A DNA stretch of 36,787 nucleotides from positions 1 to 36,787 of the forward strand of contig JALSKU010000202.1 in the NCBI GenBank assembly GCA_026988685.1. The letters are read 5' to 3'. The notes below the pieces were generated by a model. That model was not told the DNA's origin, ran no database searches, and saw nothing but the letters and a program-made list of their open reading frames with translations. Source of the DNA: Campylobacterales bacterium. Lineage in GTDB: Bacteria; Campylobacterota; Campylobacteria; Campylobacterales; JALSKU01. Position numbers and translations under genes: made by a program. This document shows, piece by piece, positions 6,426 to 12,189 of the stretch. The stretch's first letter is position 1, and every line of letters starts with the position of its first letter.

Positions 6426-7699
6426 AATATATAGCTATAATCATTACCGTTTTATCTTTTCAGATAAATTCATTCGCACTTAGCATGACTGACCTGTTTG
6501 AAGCACTGAAAAAACAGCCTGTATCCAAAGTGGATGCACTACAAGTCAGGGAGGCCAATGTAGGTGTAAAAAGTGCAAAAGATGCACTCTATCCTAAGTT
6601 ATATCTAATAGGCTCATACAATCACTATAACAGACCATCAAGCCTAAGACCTGTGCTTCCTACGGAAACCCCTACACTTTTGGCTGAAGACAAACCACTT
6701 CCTTTTAGCAAGGATATCACAAAGGTTGGAGTTGATCTTAATTTTCCTATTTTTGTCAAATCTTTATACACTATTAGAGATAAGGCAAAGCTTATAAAGT
6801 TATCTTCAAAACAAAAAAGCAGACTAAACCTCATCCAAAGAGAGGCTAAGATCTTAGGTGCCAATGCATCTTTGAACTATCTTGAGTATCTAAAGATAGC
6901 ACTAAATGAGAAGAGAAAGTCACTTCTTAAAATGAGGAAAGATATAGTTTTAAAGGTGGCTAACGGTAGAGCGGCTCCTGTGGCGCTAAACAAGATAGAC
7001 CAGAGTCTAAACAGTATAGATATCGCAAAAAACAAGATAGATCTAAGTAAAAATGAGATATCTTCACTTATCGAGACGCTAACCGGCATAAGAGTAGATA
7101 AGAGTATAGAGTTTTATCAGGCAAAAGAGATAAAAAAAGAGAGCATCTTTGCGCTCTTGCCGCTTAAAAATCTGCTAAAAGCCAAAAAAGTGGGACTCAA
7201 AGCTGCAAAAGAGGCGCTTTATCCGGCGCTTTTTTTAAATGCCAACTACTTTAAAAGCTATGCTGATGGCTACAATAACGACAAATCCATAACCACAGGC
7301 TTTGGAACTATAGGAGTTAAACTAGTGATGCCTCTGTATGACAGAAGCAAATATACTCACATCCAAAAAGCAAGAGTAGCGTATGAAAAAGAGAGAGCCA
7401 TATTGGCGAAAACAAAAAATGAACTTCTTGTAAAAGCAAAAGAGTTAGAAAATGATATAAACCTCTTAAAAAGAAGCGAAGAGCTAACCAAAAAAAGCAT
7501 AAAAAATCAAAAAGAGCTTTTAAAAGTTGCAAAAGTAGCTTTTAAAAATGAGCGAATGAGCGAAGAGGAGTATCTAAGATATGAAGATAAACTAAGTTCC
7601 CTAAGAGCAACTTTAGCTCAAGTAAAAGCAAAAAAATGGCAGGACTTAGCCCAGCTTGCCGTAATATACGGAAATGATTTGGAAGGAGTGGTAAGATGA
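6422..7699 (+). CDS. TolC family outer-membrane efflux protein
   Basis: Signal peptide; repeated coiled-coil/beta architecture (ALYPKLYLIGSYN..., ALYPALFLNANY...); overlaps TetR stop by ATGA; operonic with MFP and RND. Confidence 0.9.
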   Translation: MKYIAIIITVLSFQINSFALSMTDLFEALKKQPVSKVDALQVREANVGVKSAKDALYPKLYLIGSYNHYNRPSSLRPVLPTETPTLLAEDKPLPFSKDITKVGVDLNFPIFVKSLYTIRDKAKLIKLSSKQKSRLNLIQREAKILGANASLNYLEYLKIALNEKRKSLLKMRKDIVLKVANGRAAPVALNKIDQSLNSIDIAKNKIDLSKNEISSLIETLTGIRVDKSIEFYQAKEIKKESIFALLPLKNLLKAKKVGLKAAKEALYPALFLNANYFKSYADGYNNDKSITTGFGTIGVKLVMPLYDRSKYTHIQKARVAYEKERAILAKTKNELLVKAKELENDINLLKRSEELTKKSIKNQKELLKVAKVAFKNERMSEEEYLRYEDKLSSLRATLAQVKAKKWQDLAQLAVIYGNDLEGVVR

Positions 7700-8787
7700 A
7701 GTTTTTAAAAGGTTTGATAGTTGTTTTGATAGCGGCAGTTTTGGTAGTCGGCGGGATCAGGTTGGTTAAAAAGAAAAAGGCTGAAGAAGCAAGGATAGAA
7801 GCAGCCAAAACTTATAAAGTAGTGGTTGACTCTATGAAGTTAAAGAGCAAAATATTTAGCCTTTCGTTGCCGTACTTAGCTACCGTAGCAAGTGACAATA
7901 GAGCAGTCATATCGACTAAAGTTGCCGGCAGGATTCTAAAGATAGTTAAAAGCGGGGAAAAAGTTAAAAAGGGAGATATTTTAGTAAAGATTGATGATAG
8001 TGAGCTAAAGAGTAAGCTAGAGGCTTTAAGGTTATCGATAAACTCTATCCGCATCAATCTATCAGCAAAAAAGATAGTTCTAAAAAATGCTCTTTTAACA
8101 CATAAAAGAACAAAAGAGCTTCTTGATGTAAAAGGAGCTTCGATCGAACAGTATCAAAACGAAGAGGACAAGATAACCTTGTTAAAAGCCTCTATTGCGT
8201 CACTTAAAAGCAACATAGCAATAAACAAAGCAAAGATAGATGAGATAAAAAATTTACTCAGTTATACTGTTATAAAGGCTCCGTTTGATGGTGTAGTAAG
8301 CAAAACCAATGCAACTATCTTAGATATGGCGATGCCAGGAAAACCCTTGGCATTTTTACAGGCTCTTAAAGGTAACTATCTTGTAGTAGCACTTCCAGAT
8401 AGCGTAAAGGCTAAAGAGATACTCTATGAGGGTAAGAGTTATCCTCTTATCTCTTTACACTCTACCGTTAATGGACTTGAAAAGTATAAAGTATTGGCAA
8501 AGGTTAAGGAGAGCATAGGAAGCAGGGTCAATGTGAAAGTTAAAACATTTGATGGGGATGGTGTTTGGCTTCCACTAAATGCTCTCCTTCAGATAAACAA
8601 TAAGAGCTATATATTTGTTATAGATAAAGATGTGGCAAAACCTGTCGGCGTAAAACTTTTGGCTGACGGAGAAGAGGGGTATGCTATAGATAAAAAATAT
8701 GAAGGGAAAAAAGTAGTTTTGGCAAAGCCGGATATATTTCTAAAACTTTTGGCAGGAACGAGGATAGAATTAAGAATTAAGAGTTAA
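7696..8787 (+). CDS. Efflux RND transporter periplasmic adaptor (membrane fusion) subunit
   Basis: Lipoyl-like AVISTKVAGRILKIVKSGEKVKKGDILVKIDDSEL, coiled coil, YTVIKAPFDGVVSK. Confidence 0.93.
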   Translation: MKFLKGLIVVLIAAVLVVGGIRLVKKKKAEEARIEAAKTYKVVVDSMKLKSKIFSLSLPYLATVASDNRAVISTKVAGRILKIVKSGEKVKKGDILVKIDDSELKSKLEALRLSINSIRINLSAKKIVLKNALLTHKRTKELLDVKGASIEQYQNEEDKITLLKASIASLKSNIAINKAKIDEIKNLLSYTVIKAPFDGVVSKTNATILDMAMPGKPLAFLQALKGNYLVVALPDSVKAKEILYEGKSYPLISLHSTVNGLEKYKVLAKVKESIGSRVNVKVKTFDGDGVWLPLNALLQINNKSYIFVIDKDVAKPVGVKLLADGEEGYAIDKKYEGKKVVLAKPDIFLKLLAGTRIELRIKS

Positions 8788-9077
8788 GAATTAAGGAATG
8801 GAGATTTAAATTTCTGCAAAACATATGCAGCGGAAGGGTTAAAATCTTTGATTTTGGGGTACCCACCGTGAATCCGTTTTGAAGAAGTTTAAATCGGAAT
8901 GGATTTTAAAGTGAAGAATTAAGAGTGGAGGATGGATTGGATAACAATATTATTTATGATAAAAGTTATAAGTTTGCATTGAGAGTTGTAAAGCTTTATC
9001 AATATTTAAAAAATGAACACAAATAGTCTAAAATTAAGAACTCAAAACTCTTAATTCTTAACTCTTAATTCTTAATT
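8768..9077. mobile_element. Putative MITE-like / four-helix-bundle element bounded by 28-bp perfect inverted repeats
   Basis: Left arm 8768-8795 AATTAAGAATTAAGAGTTAAGAATTAAG; right arm 9050-9077 is its exact reverse complement; about 254 bp interior with a truncated four-helix-bundle ORF; splits the mfp-RND operon. Confidence 0.7.
8937..9026 (+). pseudogene. N-terminal fragment of a four helix bundle (S23/IVS-type) protein
   Basis: LDNNIIYDKSYKFALRVVKLYQYLKNEHK* matches the typical start of TIGR02436-type proteins, then stops after ~30 codons. Confidence 0.65.
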
Positions 9078-9090
9078 TCAAAGGATAGTG

Positions 9091-12000
9091 ATGTTTGAAT
9101 TTTTCTATAAAAGACCATATTTGCTTTTTAGCACTATAGCTCTTTTCTTTGTGATGGGTGTTATCGGGCTTGTAAAGATGCCTAAAAATCTCTTTCCGGA
9201 TAGCGAATACCCTACTGTTGTAGTTATTACGAAGATCCCGGGAGCTACCGCAAAAGTGGCTGCTAGTACGGTATCTAAGCCTATAGAGGAGGAGATCTCA
9301 AGACTCTCTTTGATAAGAGATATAAGCTCTGTAAATGTTCCTAACTTTTCTATCATAAAGGCAGAATTTGGTTATAAAAAAGGGTTGGAAGCTGCTGCTG
9401 TTGATGTGAGCAATGCACTCTCTATCGCAAAGGCAAAACTACCGCCAAATGCCAATCCGGCAGTTTATACAGTGGGCTCTTTTACCTTACCTGTCGATGT
9501 AGTAGCGCTTAGCCCTAAAAATAAAAATATATCACTTAAAGAGATAAGAAAGATAGCTGATAGTTTTATAAAACCATATCTTTTAAGCGACCATGTTATA
9601 GGTAATGTAGAGGTTTTCGGTGGATATAAAAGTGCTATAAATATCAACATAGACCCTCTTAAAATGAAAAAATACCAGTTTAGCTTTGCTCAGGTTTTTA
9701 ATGTTTTAAGAGGAAGCGAGAGAGATATCCCTATGGGATTTATAAAAGGAAAAAATGGCTTCTTTACACTTACAATATATGGTGAAAAAGATAGAGTAAG
9801 TGAGTTAAAAAGAGTAGCAATAGCCCCAAATATAATGCTAAAAGATATAGCTACTGTTAACTGGAGTGAGCAAAAAAGAACATCAGGATATATCGGAAAC
9901 TCCAAAGAGGCTATAGCTTTGGCGATACAAAGGGCACCAGGGGGTAGCGTATTGGATGTTAGCAATGAAGCAAGGGCACAGATCAAAAAACTTCAAAAGA
10001 TGTATCCAAATATCGACTTTTCTATAAGTGATACCCAAAGAATACTCATAAAAACAGCTAACACAAATATGCTTGAAGCTTTAAGGGATGCTATCATCTA
10101 CACTCTTTTGGTTTTGATGTTTTTTCTTGGCAATTTTAGAGCGATTATCGCTGCAGGTCTTTCTATACCTATGGTATTTTTTGGAACGATGGCAGTTATA
10201 TACCTAAGTGGCGGGGAGTTAAATATAGTCATCTATACAGCTATCATACTTGCGCTTGGAATGCTTGTTGATGATGCGGTTGTTGTTCTTGAAAACATTG
10301 AGAGGCATCTAAGCGGAATGCATCAAGACTTGCAGGTTGCTATAAAGGAGGGAACAAGAGAGGTGCTTTTGCCTATATTTGCCGGAACTGTTGCTACTAT
10401 TGCTATCATGTTTCCCCTTATGTTTGTCGGAGGCTTTCCTCAAAAGATATTTAGGCCTCTTATATCTACTCTTATCATCGCTTTGCTCGTTTCGTACTTT
10501 TTATCCATTACTTTTATACCCAAGCTTTCAACATATTTGTATAAAAACGGAACCCAAAAAACAAAGGTAGAGAAGTGGTTTGAGTGGTTTTACCAAAATA
10601 CACTTGGAAGACTCATAGTGCCTTATGAGGGGATTTTGAAATTTTCCAATGGGAGATTTAAGCCTCTTAGGAGATTTCCTCTTGTTGCATTGGCGATTGT
10701 AATTTTTATCCTATCTTTAAAAAATATTATGCCGTTAATAGGAAAAGATACTATGCCTCCAATGGATACGGGTATCATGAAAGCTCAGATAGCCTTTAGC
10801 ACAAATGATACCGTAGAAGATGCCGAAAAAAGACTAAAACCATTTCTAAAATGGCTAAAAACTCAGAAGAATTTTGTAATGAGTTCCATAGCCTTTGGTA
10901 GTGAGAGTGGAGTATTGTCTCTTGGAAGTGGAAATCTTCCTACTGAAGCTACTATCACTATCAATGCGGTAAATCGTTTCCAAAGAAAAAAATCTATCTG
11001 GCAGATGGAAAACGAGATACGAGATAAATTACACGAATTAAAAGGGATAAAGCGAGCAGATGTATTTGACTTCGGTGCTACGGCGTTATCTTCCATCAAG
11101 GCCCCGCTTGACATAAGAGTAAAATCAGCCACTTTTGATACGCTGCCACAAAAAGCAAAAGAGATACAAAAGGCTATCTCTAAGATAAAGGGGCTAACAA
11201 GCACCTCTATAAGTTGGGATAAAGATTTTAGCGAGATAGAAGTTGTGGTAGATAAAAATAGAGCCTTAAGCTATGGGCTTACACCATTTAGCATAATGGC
11301 TCAAATCCCCATAAAAGGTCAGATCGCTTCACTCAATGCAAATCTAACCTCTATGGATACACAGTTTGTAAGGATCTACCTACACGGCAAGTTTAATGGC
11401 AATATAGAGTCCCTAAAACTTTTACCGCTTCACGCAAAAGGTGGAGATATACCTCTTAGTGCGGTTGCAAAGGTAAGATACAGACTAACTGAAGCTAAGA
11501 TAGAAAGAGATAAGATGCTATACAGCATAGATATAAATGGATATAGGGCAAAAAGAGCTATAACACATCTAACGGATGATGCCAATAAAGCACTAAGCAA
11601 GATAGATAAAACCGGTTATATCGTAACTCAAGAGGGAGATATATCATCGTTAAATGACAGTTTTTACAGGATGATAAAAGCTATAGGCATAGGTATTGTT
11701 GTACTCCTTTTGACTCTAATCTCTATATATCACTCAGTAAGGCTCTCTTTGATCATGATAGTTGTTTTGCCACTTTCGATGATAGGTGCAGCTTGGGCTA
11801 TGCTTATCTTTGACAAGCCAAGCTGTATGCCAAGCCTGGTGGGAATACTGCTGCTTTTTGGTATCATCATCAAAAATGCGGTCTTGCTTGTGGACTTTTT
11901 CCAAGAGTATAGAAAGGAGGGCAACTCTCCATTTGAGAGTGCCTTAAAAAGTGTCAGTGTCAGATTTAGACCTGTCATGATGACTGCTTTTGGAACGATA

Positions 12001-12189
12001 GCAGGTATGATACCTATAGCACTTGAGCAAGCTGTAGGACTAGAGAGGCTCTCACCTTTGGCAGATGTTGCGGTAGGCGGACTAATAGTCGGAACCTTTT
12101 TGACACTGATATATGTGCCAATGTTTGCATATATTTTTGACAAAGAGAAAAAAACAGATAAAATCAAAACAGGAGAAGAAAATGGATGA
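9091..12189 (+). CDS. Efflux RND transporter permease (AcrB/MdtB-like)
   Basis: ~1030 aa; LGMLVDDAVVVLENIERHL and GIIIKNAVLLVDFFQEYR motifs of RND pumps. Confidence 0.96.
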   Translation: MFEFFYKRPYLLFSTIALFFVMGVIGLVKMPKNLFPDSEYPTVVVITKIPGATAKVAASTVSKPIEEEISRLSLIRDISSVNVPNFSIIKAEFGYKKGLEAAAVDVSNALSIAKAKLPPNANPAVYTVGSFTLPVDVVALSPKNKNISLKEIRKIADSFIKPYLLSDHVIGNVEVFGGYKSAININIDPLKMKKYQFSFAQVFNVLRGSERDIPMGFIKGKNGFFTLTIYGEKDRVSELKRVAIAPNIMLKDIATVNWSEQKRTSGYIGNSKEAIALAIQRAPGGSVLDVSNEARAQIKKLQKMYPNIDFSISDTQRILIKTANTNMLEALRDAIIYTLLVLMFFLGNFRAIIAAGLSIPMVFFGTMAVIYLSGGELNIVIYTAIILALGMLVDDAVVVLENIERHLSGMHQDLQVAIKEGTREVLLPIFAGTVATIAIMFPLMFVGGFPQKIFRPLISTLIIALLVSYFLSITFIPKLSTYLYKNGTQKTKVEKWFEWFYQNTLGRLIVPYEGILKFSNGRFKPLRRFPLVALAIVIFILSLKNIMPLIGKDTMPPMDTGIMKAQIAFSTNDTVEDAEKRLKPFLKWLKTQKNFVMSSIAFGSESGVLSLGSGNLPTEATITINAVNRFQRKKSIWQMENEIRDKLHELKGIKRADVFDFGATALSSIKAPLDIRVKSATFDTLPQKAKEIQKAISKIKGLTSTSISWDKDFSEIEVVVDKNRALSYGLTPFSIMAQIPIKGQIASLNANLTSMDTQFVRIYLHGKFNGNIESLKLLPLHAKGGDIPLSAVAKVRYRLTEAKIERDKMLYSIDINGYRAKRAITHLTDDANKALSKIDKTGYIVTQEGDISSLNDSFYRMIKAIGIGIVVLLLTLISIYHSVRLSLIMIVVLPLSMIGAAWAMLIFDKPSCMPSLVGILLLFGIIIKNAVLLVDFFQEYRKEGNSPFESALKSVSVRFRPVMMTAFGTIAGMIPIALEQAVGLERLSPLADVAVGGLIVGTFLTLIYVPMFAYIFDKEKKTDKIKTGEENG

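Follow-up and report, generated by a model that had tools for sequence, protein, structure and literature searches.

Our analysis shows that a 313-bp segment in an efflux operon is an insertion near the 3' end of the membrane-fusion protein gene, before the RND pump gene (Table 1; positions refer to the window, the whole stretch of 36,787 nt that was analysed). It probably belongs, in decayed form, to a class of cassettes in which a four-helix-bundle (4HB) gene of the S23 type (TIGR02436) is bracketed by inverted arrays of 7-base tandem units, a build shared by at least one intervening sequence (IVS) of 23S rRNA.

Table 1 Features of the insertion and its surroundings, with a second heptad-armed element of the source genome.
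Feature	Position	Strand	Details and basis
HlyD-type membrane-fusion protein gene	7696–8787	+	Ends now at TAA within the left heptads
Whole insertion	8767–9079	+	313 bp, ends ±1–2 bases; empty junctions in relatives, RNA fold
Left heptad array	8766–8795	+	AATTAAG/AGTTAAG units; perfect inverted repeat has its left arm at 8768–8795
Nested dispersed hairpin element	8803–8895	+	93 nt, conserved apical core 8815–8878; fold, covariance model
Internal heptad-like stretch	8913–8926	+	Orientation as in the left array
Truncated 4HB/S23 reading frame	8937–9026	+	29 codons plus TAG, TTG start; alignment of N-termini
Right heptad array, inverted	9046–9077	-	Perfect inverted repeat has its right arm at 9050–9077
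Fusion-protein gene, inferred old end (AAA GGA TAG)	9080–9088	+	Comparison with G025, G004 and others
AcrB-type RND pump gene	9091–12189	+	ATG start by homology; ORF tool gives GTG at 9088
Second heptad-armed element (source genome, G000)	C28:725-851, C51:7059-7168, C195:4154-4254, C46:17326-17457, C24:11873-11950		

The operon runs from an outer-membrane factor through a HlyD-type fusion protein to an AcrB-type RND pump. The segment is an insertion, since relatives of the same genus have uninterrupted junctions between the last two genes (mfp–RND): the junction is empty in seven of the eight other genomes of the genus, the eighth (G006) being without an RND match. In the relatives the fusion-protein gene extends a few codons further and is followed immediately by ATGTTTGA, examples of intact junctions being ...AAGATCAAGGAGTAGAAATGTTTGAATAT in G004 and ...AAAGAGATAAAAGGATAGCGTATGTTTGAA in G025, and the stop codon of the fusion protein directly abuts the pump start in several other genera too. 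Reconstructed by comparison with relatives, the old junction would have read ...GGA ACG AGG ATA / AAA GGA TAG TG ATG, with the insertion positioned two codons before the old fusion-protein stop (slash). These comparisons bear out an earlier, sequence-only reading of this DNA, which had placed an element within an efflux operon. The same reading had offered AGGATAG, found at 8761–8767 and again at 9082–9088, as a possible target duplication. Both copies are present, but the right one is the old gene end, and joining the two would leave the fusion-protein gene without an in-frame stop codon; a 7-bp target duplication was therefore rejected on the evidence of the relatives' junctions. By eye, heptad-like repeats without a 4HB gene were also seen at the mfp–RND junction of a genome from another family (G011, locus L242), where an independent insertion may have left them behind as a scar.

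The 28-nt perfect inverted repeat described in the sequence-only reading is exact, with 254 nt between arms that both have a period of 7 by Tandem Repeats Finder (8766–8795 and 9049–9077). No other perfect inverted repeat in the window comes near it, the runner-up measuring 13 nt, and in 200 dinucleotide shuffles of the region the longest inverted repeat reached at most 14 nt. The internal heptad that had been noted near 8916 was likewise found. In the predicted RNA fold, the terminal inverted repeats pair, as those of an IVS do, into a single 30-bp heptad stem that closes the entire element (-85.1 kcal/mol, z -6.2). Inverted arrays of 7-bp period lie at both ends of the element, and its flank complementarity score is 28, compared with a 99th percentile of 12.5 for controls.

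Within these arms, the short reading frame encodes the peptide LDNNIIYDKSYKFALRVVKLYQYLKNEHK*, taken from the outset for the start of a 4HB protein. Indeed, it agrees at 18 of 28 residues with the N-terminus of the intact 4HB protein of G007, a genome of the genus (E = 2e-10, single comparison). An NCBIfam HMM search with the 29-residue fragment, which is below HMM sensitivity, returned 0 matches; the intact relative matches TIGR02436 (5.6e-32) and PF05635 (2.5e-29). The window frame has 29 codons against about 120 in intact relatives, so that the arrays here do not enclose an intact 4HB gene, and searches of the source genome (G000) with PF05635 and TIGR02436 found none either. That genome is a 232-contig assembly; a source copy could in principle be missing from it, or the truncation could be an assembly fault. 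Since its ORF is truncated, the window copy is non-autonomous at best, and to that extent the earlier description of a non-autonomous derivative of a mobile element holds, its mobility being something we infer. Elsewhere in G000 a 330-bp query gave partial matches only, to the hairpin part or the heptads, and a single-sequence query of viral contigs yielded no confirmed 4HB relatives. Host families are scattered over the 4HB tree (34 changes, against a shuffled mean of 39.1 and a minimum of 15), a pattern that, in a short protein resolving few forks, would be consistent with horizontal movement.

The arms could also be explained without a cassette, as host satellites that arose by polymerase slippage and were copied between arms by hairpin template switching, with 4HB genes sitting where such arrays are tolerated; the arrays would then not delimit a mobile element. 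Bacteria commonly have heptamer satellites, which have been ascribed to slippage (PMC4679880, PMC6749651). The distribution of GAATTAA triplets within the genus bears on both explanations. The heptads are no single-copy feature, G000 having 63 matches spread over about 33 places; most of these places are without a 4HB fragment, which favours slippage. Outside G000, however, GAATTAA arrays occur within the genus only in G007, and this sole site lies directly upstream of the full-length TIGR02436 gene, in keeping with the earlier suggestion that heptads and 4HB gene belong together. Slippage alone would also not put inverted arrays on both flanks of a 4HB gene.

That association extends over 72 distinct 4HB loci, drawn from Campylobacterota genomes together with 12 plasmid genes from five other phyla (Spirochaetota, Bacteroidota, Cyanobacteriota, Bacillota and Chloroflexota). 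Mean flank complementarity at these loci was 17.9; same-distance windows from within each locus averaged 8.0, and swapped flanks 8.1. The 99th percentile of the windows was exceeded by 48 of the 72, and clear inverted arms were absent from the flanks tested at 24. Self-identity of the flanks at a lag of 7 was 0.705 and 0.712 against 0.436 in controls, with no peak at any other lag, an excess specific to 4HB flanks relative to windows of the same loci and one that speaks against slippage. Heptamers vary between cassettes of one genome (ATTTTGG and AATGAGG in G032), which argues against one host-wide satellite, although arms that agree within a cassette and not between cassettes are as expected of local homogenisation. 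Taken with the uninterrupted junction in relatives, these data make an origin by slippage unlikely in our view. Inverted 7-bp arrays are a general pattern at 4HB loci, including the plasmid genes of the five other phyla. Of the plasmid cassettes, 11 have an annotated neighbour on either side, and 10 of these 11 lie between co-oriented genes (three of these antisense), the neighbour pairs including hsdS–hsdR, cas2–cas1 and helicase–methylase.

Several further observations concern the placement and diversity of such arrays. Plasmids of Nostoc and Anabaena (L258, L259) have antisense 4HB cassettes between cas2 and cas1, and in Campylobacterota an emrA–emrB-like junction is used repeatedly (L213, L222, L230 and L235, by eye). 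G000 also contains a second small heptad-armed element, in which a short palindrome (ATTTATTGGC...GCCAATAAAT) stands between inverted heptads. Among the loci examined in this genome it has five distinct copies, one of them with a different heptamer in its right arm.

The insertion additionally contains a hairpin that the sequence-only reading had missed and that is a separate dispersed element, apparently undescribed. Its covariance-model match in the window scores 85.2 bits (E 9e-17), and it is one of 26 copies in G000. Across the order, a model of the 64-nt core found copies in 32 of 299 genomes, patchily distributed and absent from the eight other genomes of the genus. All named hits belong to Campylobacterota, to which the family, about 140–150 nt long, appears specific (loci L001-L026, L062-L105 and L147-L206). 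Copies share the apical core, and their arm sequences are unrelated between copies but 89% complementary within a copy; on the core strand, 91 G-U pairs compared with 48 A-C mismatches hint at selection on the RNA. Because RNAalifold on the broad alignment gave the apical stem only, the structure underlying the covariance model was specified manually. A 4-bp direct repeat just outside the hairpin termini (184 matches against 156.5 expected, a value reached in 0 of 5000 permutations) is a possible target duplication, though it was picked as the strongest signal among 64 combinations of offset and length. Searches returned no Rfam family for the hairpin and no copy of its core in viral contigs, and terminal repeats in G196 and G163 led to no autonomous partner at transposon distance, mostly forming pairs about 45–135 bp apart. 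Most copies in G000 (L003-L025) are preceded by a conserved module, CCCCCATGTCAACAAAGTTGACACAAATAAGTGATAAAATCATGG...ATGGGG, which is absent from the copies of other genomes. Some (L006, L010, L018-L026) mix inner-stem halves, for example CGGAAGGGT with AGCGTCC, a number of them no longer pairing, as if copies had recombined with one another at the central hairpin.

GARTTAA heptads lie near 19 of the 26 hairpin copies in G000 and near 0 of the 121 in other genomes, and for this reason we do not count the heptads as part of the hairpin family, which is not tied to 4HB genes and has its own ends in other lineages. It is thus very improbable that the insertion is essentially a MITE-like member of this family carrying heptads and 4HB fragment as passengers: the hairpin does occupy 93 of the 313 bp and does keep company with GARTTAA pairs in G000, but not elsewhere, and the outer inverted arms of the window enclose both hairpin and 4HB fragment.

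A heptad-armed 4HB cassette has a counterpart in rRNA. In G087, the one genome on whose IVS our 23S comparison rests, three identical 4HB genes lie one within each of three 23S rRNA genes, and the terminal arms of the IVS are inverted heptad arrays (CGGAATACAGATTACAGAATACAGATTACAGAG and TCCGTAATCCGTATTCTGTCATCTGTATTCCG); in G075, which belongs to the genus of G087, the helix is empty (GTAGGCTTGATTTATCAAGCGGTAGG). The IVS of Coxiella burnetii contains an S23p ORF, has a 28-bp terminal stem and is cleaved by RNase III in vitro (PMC4990558). The window element resembles these S23p-type IVSs in its terminal inverted repeats of ~28 bp, which pair into a single long stem, and that of G087 also in that the repeats are heptad arrays; what they enclose here is the first 29 codons of a putative 4HB/S23 gene, clearly similar to the intact relative. 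Unlike them, it lies between two protein genes, has a truncated ORF and includes an extra hairpin. Since a 23S rRNA location was tested and the insertion was found between the mfp and RND genes, the window element is an IVS-like cassette in an mRNA and not an IVS proper.

We propose that cassettes of this class, each with its own 7-base unit sequence, would mostly be situated inside transcription units, where the transcribed arrays would anneal to each other and close the cassette off with a long double-stranded stem. RNase III could cut this stem, leaving the flanking transcript as separate pieces, an outcome that should be tolerable between two cistrons or in an rRNA that remains assembled. 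By analogy with the IVSs, the efflux operon transcript may be processed in this way. Entry of the cassette upstream of the fusion-protein stop would have supplied a new stop inside the left array. The window cassette, from which some three quarters of the 4HB gene are missing and which also contains a copy of the dispersed hairpin, cannot supply its own protein. The cassettes are presumably mobile, and the 4HB protein might play a part in that mobility; no transposition event or target duplication was found for them.

Among known systems, genes annotated as TIGR02436 or PF05635 in operons and on plasmids share with the window element the protein family and the 7-bp inverted flanks, the difference being that only 29 codons are left here. 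Heptamer satellites and STRR-type repeats (PMC4692102, PMC4679880, PMC6749651) are similarly tandem 7-bp units in intergenic DNA, but the window units form an inverted pair bracketing a 4HB gene, whereas the repeats in these papers come without such a gene, and those of PMC4692102 are reported to have in general no link to mobile elements. In being short, with terminal inverted repeats and no complete ORF, the insertion is like MITE-like elements; unlike them, it shows neither a target-site duplication nor several genomic copies, the whole element being single-copy in G000. The intact G007 relative is weakly similar to Avd, an accessory protein of diversity-generating retroelements (NF033474, E 2.8e-4), but its 21.2 bits compare with an equivalog cut-off of 80, and the 29-residue fragment gave 0 hits.

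Taken singly, S23-type IVSs, TIGR02436 proteins and heptamer satellites have all been described before. The connection between heptads and 4HB genes may be new; we found no report linking heptamer arrays to 4HB genes in the open-access literature searched. It could be, and we would put the chance at a little below even, that heptad-bracketed 4HB cassettes form one unrecognised mobile, transcript-splitting class across bacterial phyla, with S23-type IVSs as its rRNA lineage and some heptamer satellites as its debris or non-autonomous derivatives. A single class of mobile element covering IVSs, 4HB genes and satellites is a plausible reading of what is an association. Two old puzzles appear to be linked, namely where S23-encoding 23S IVSs come from and how they move, and how bacterial heptamer satellites arose; because many 4HB genes are annotated without a function, the heptad link can be tested there at once.
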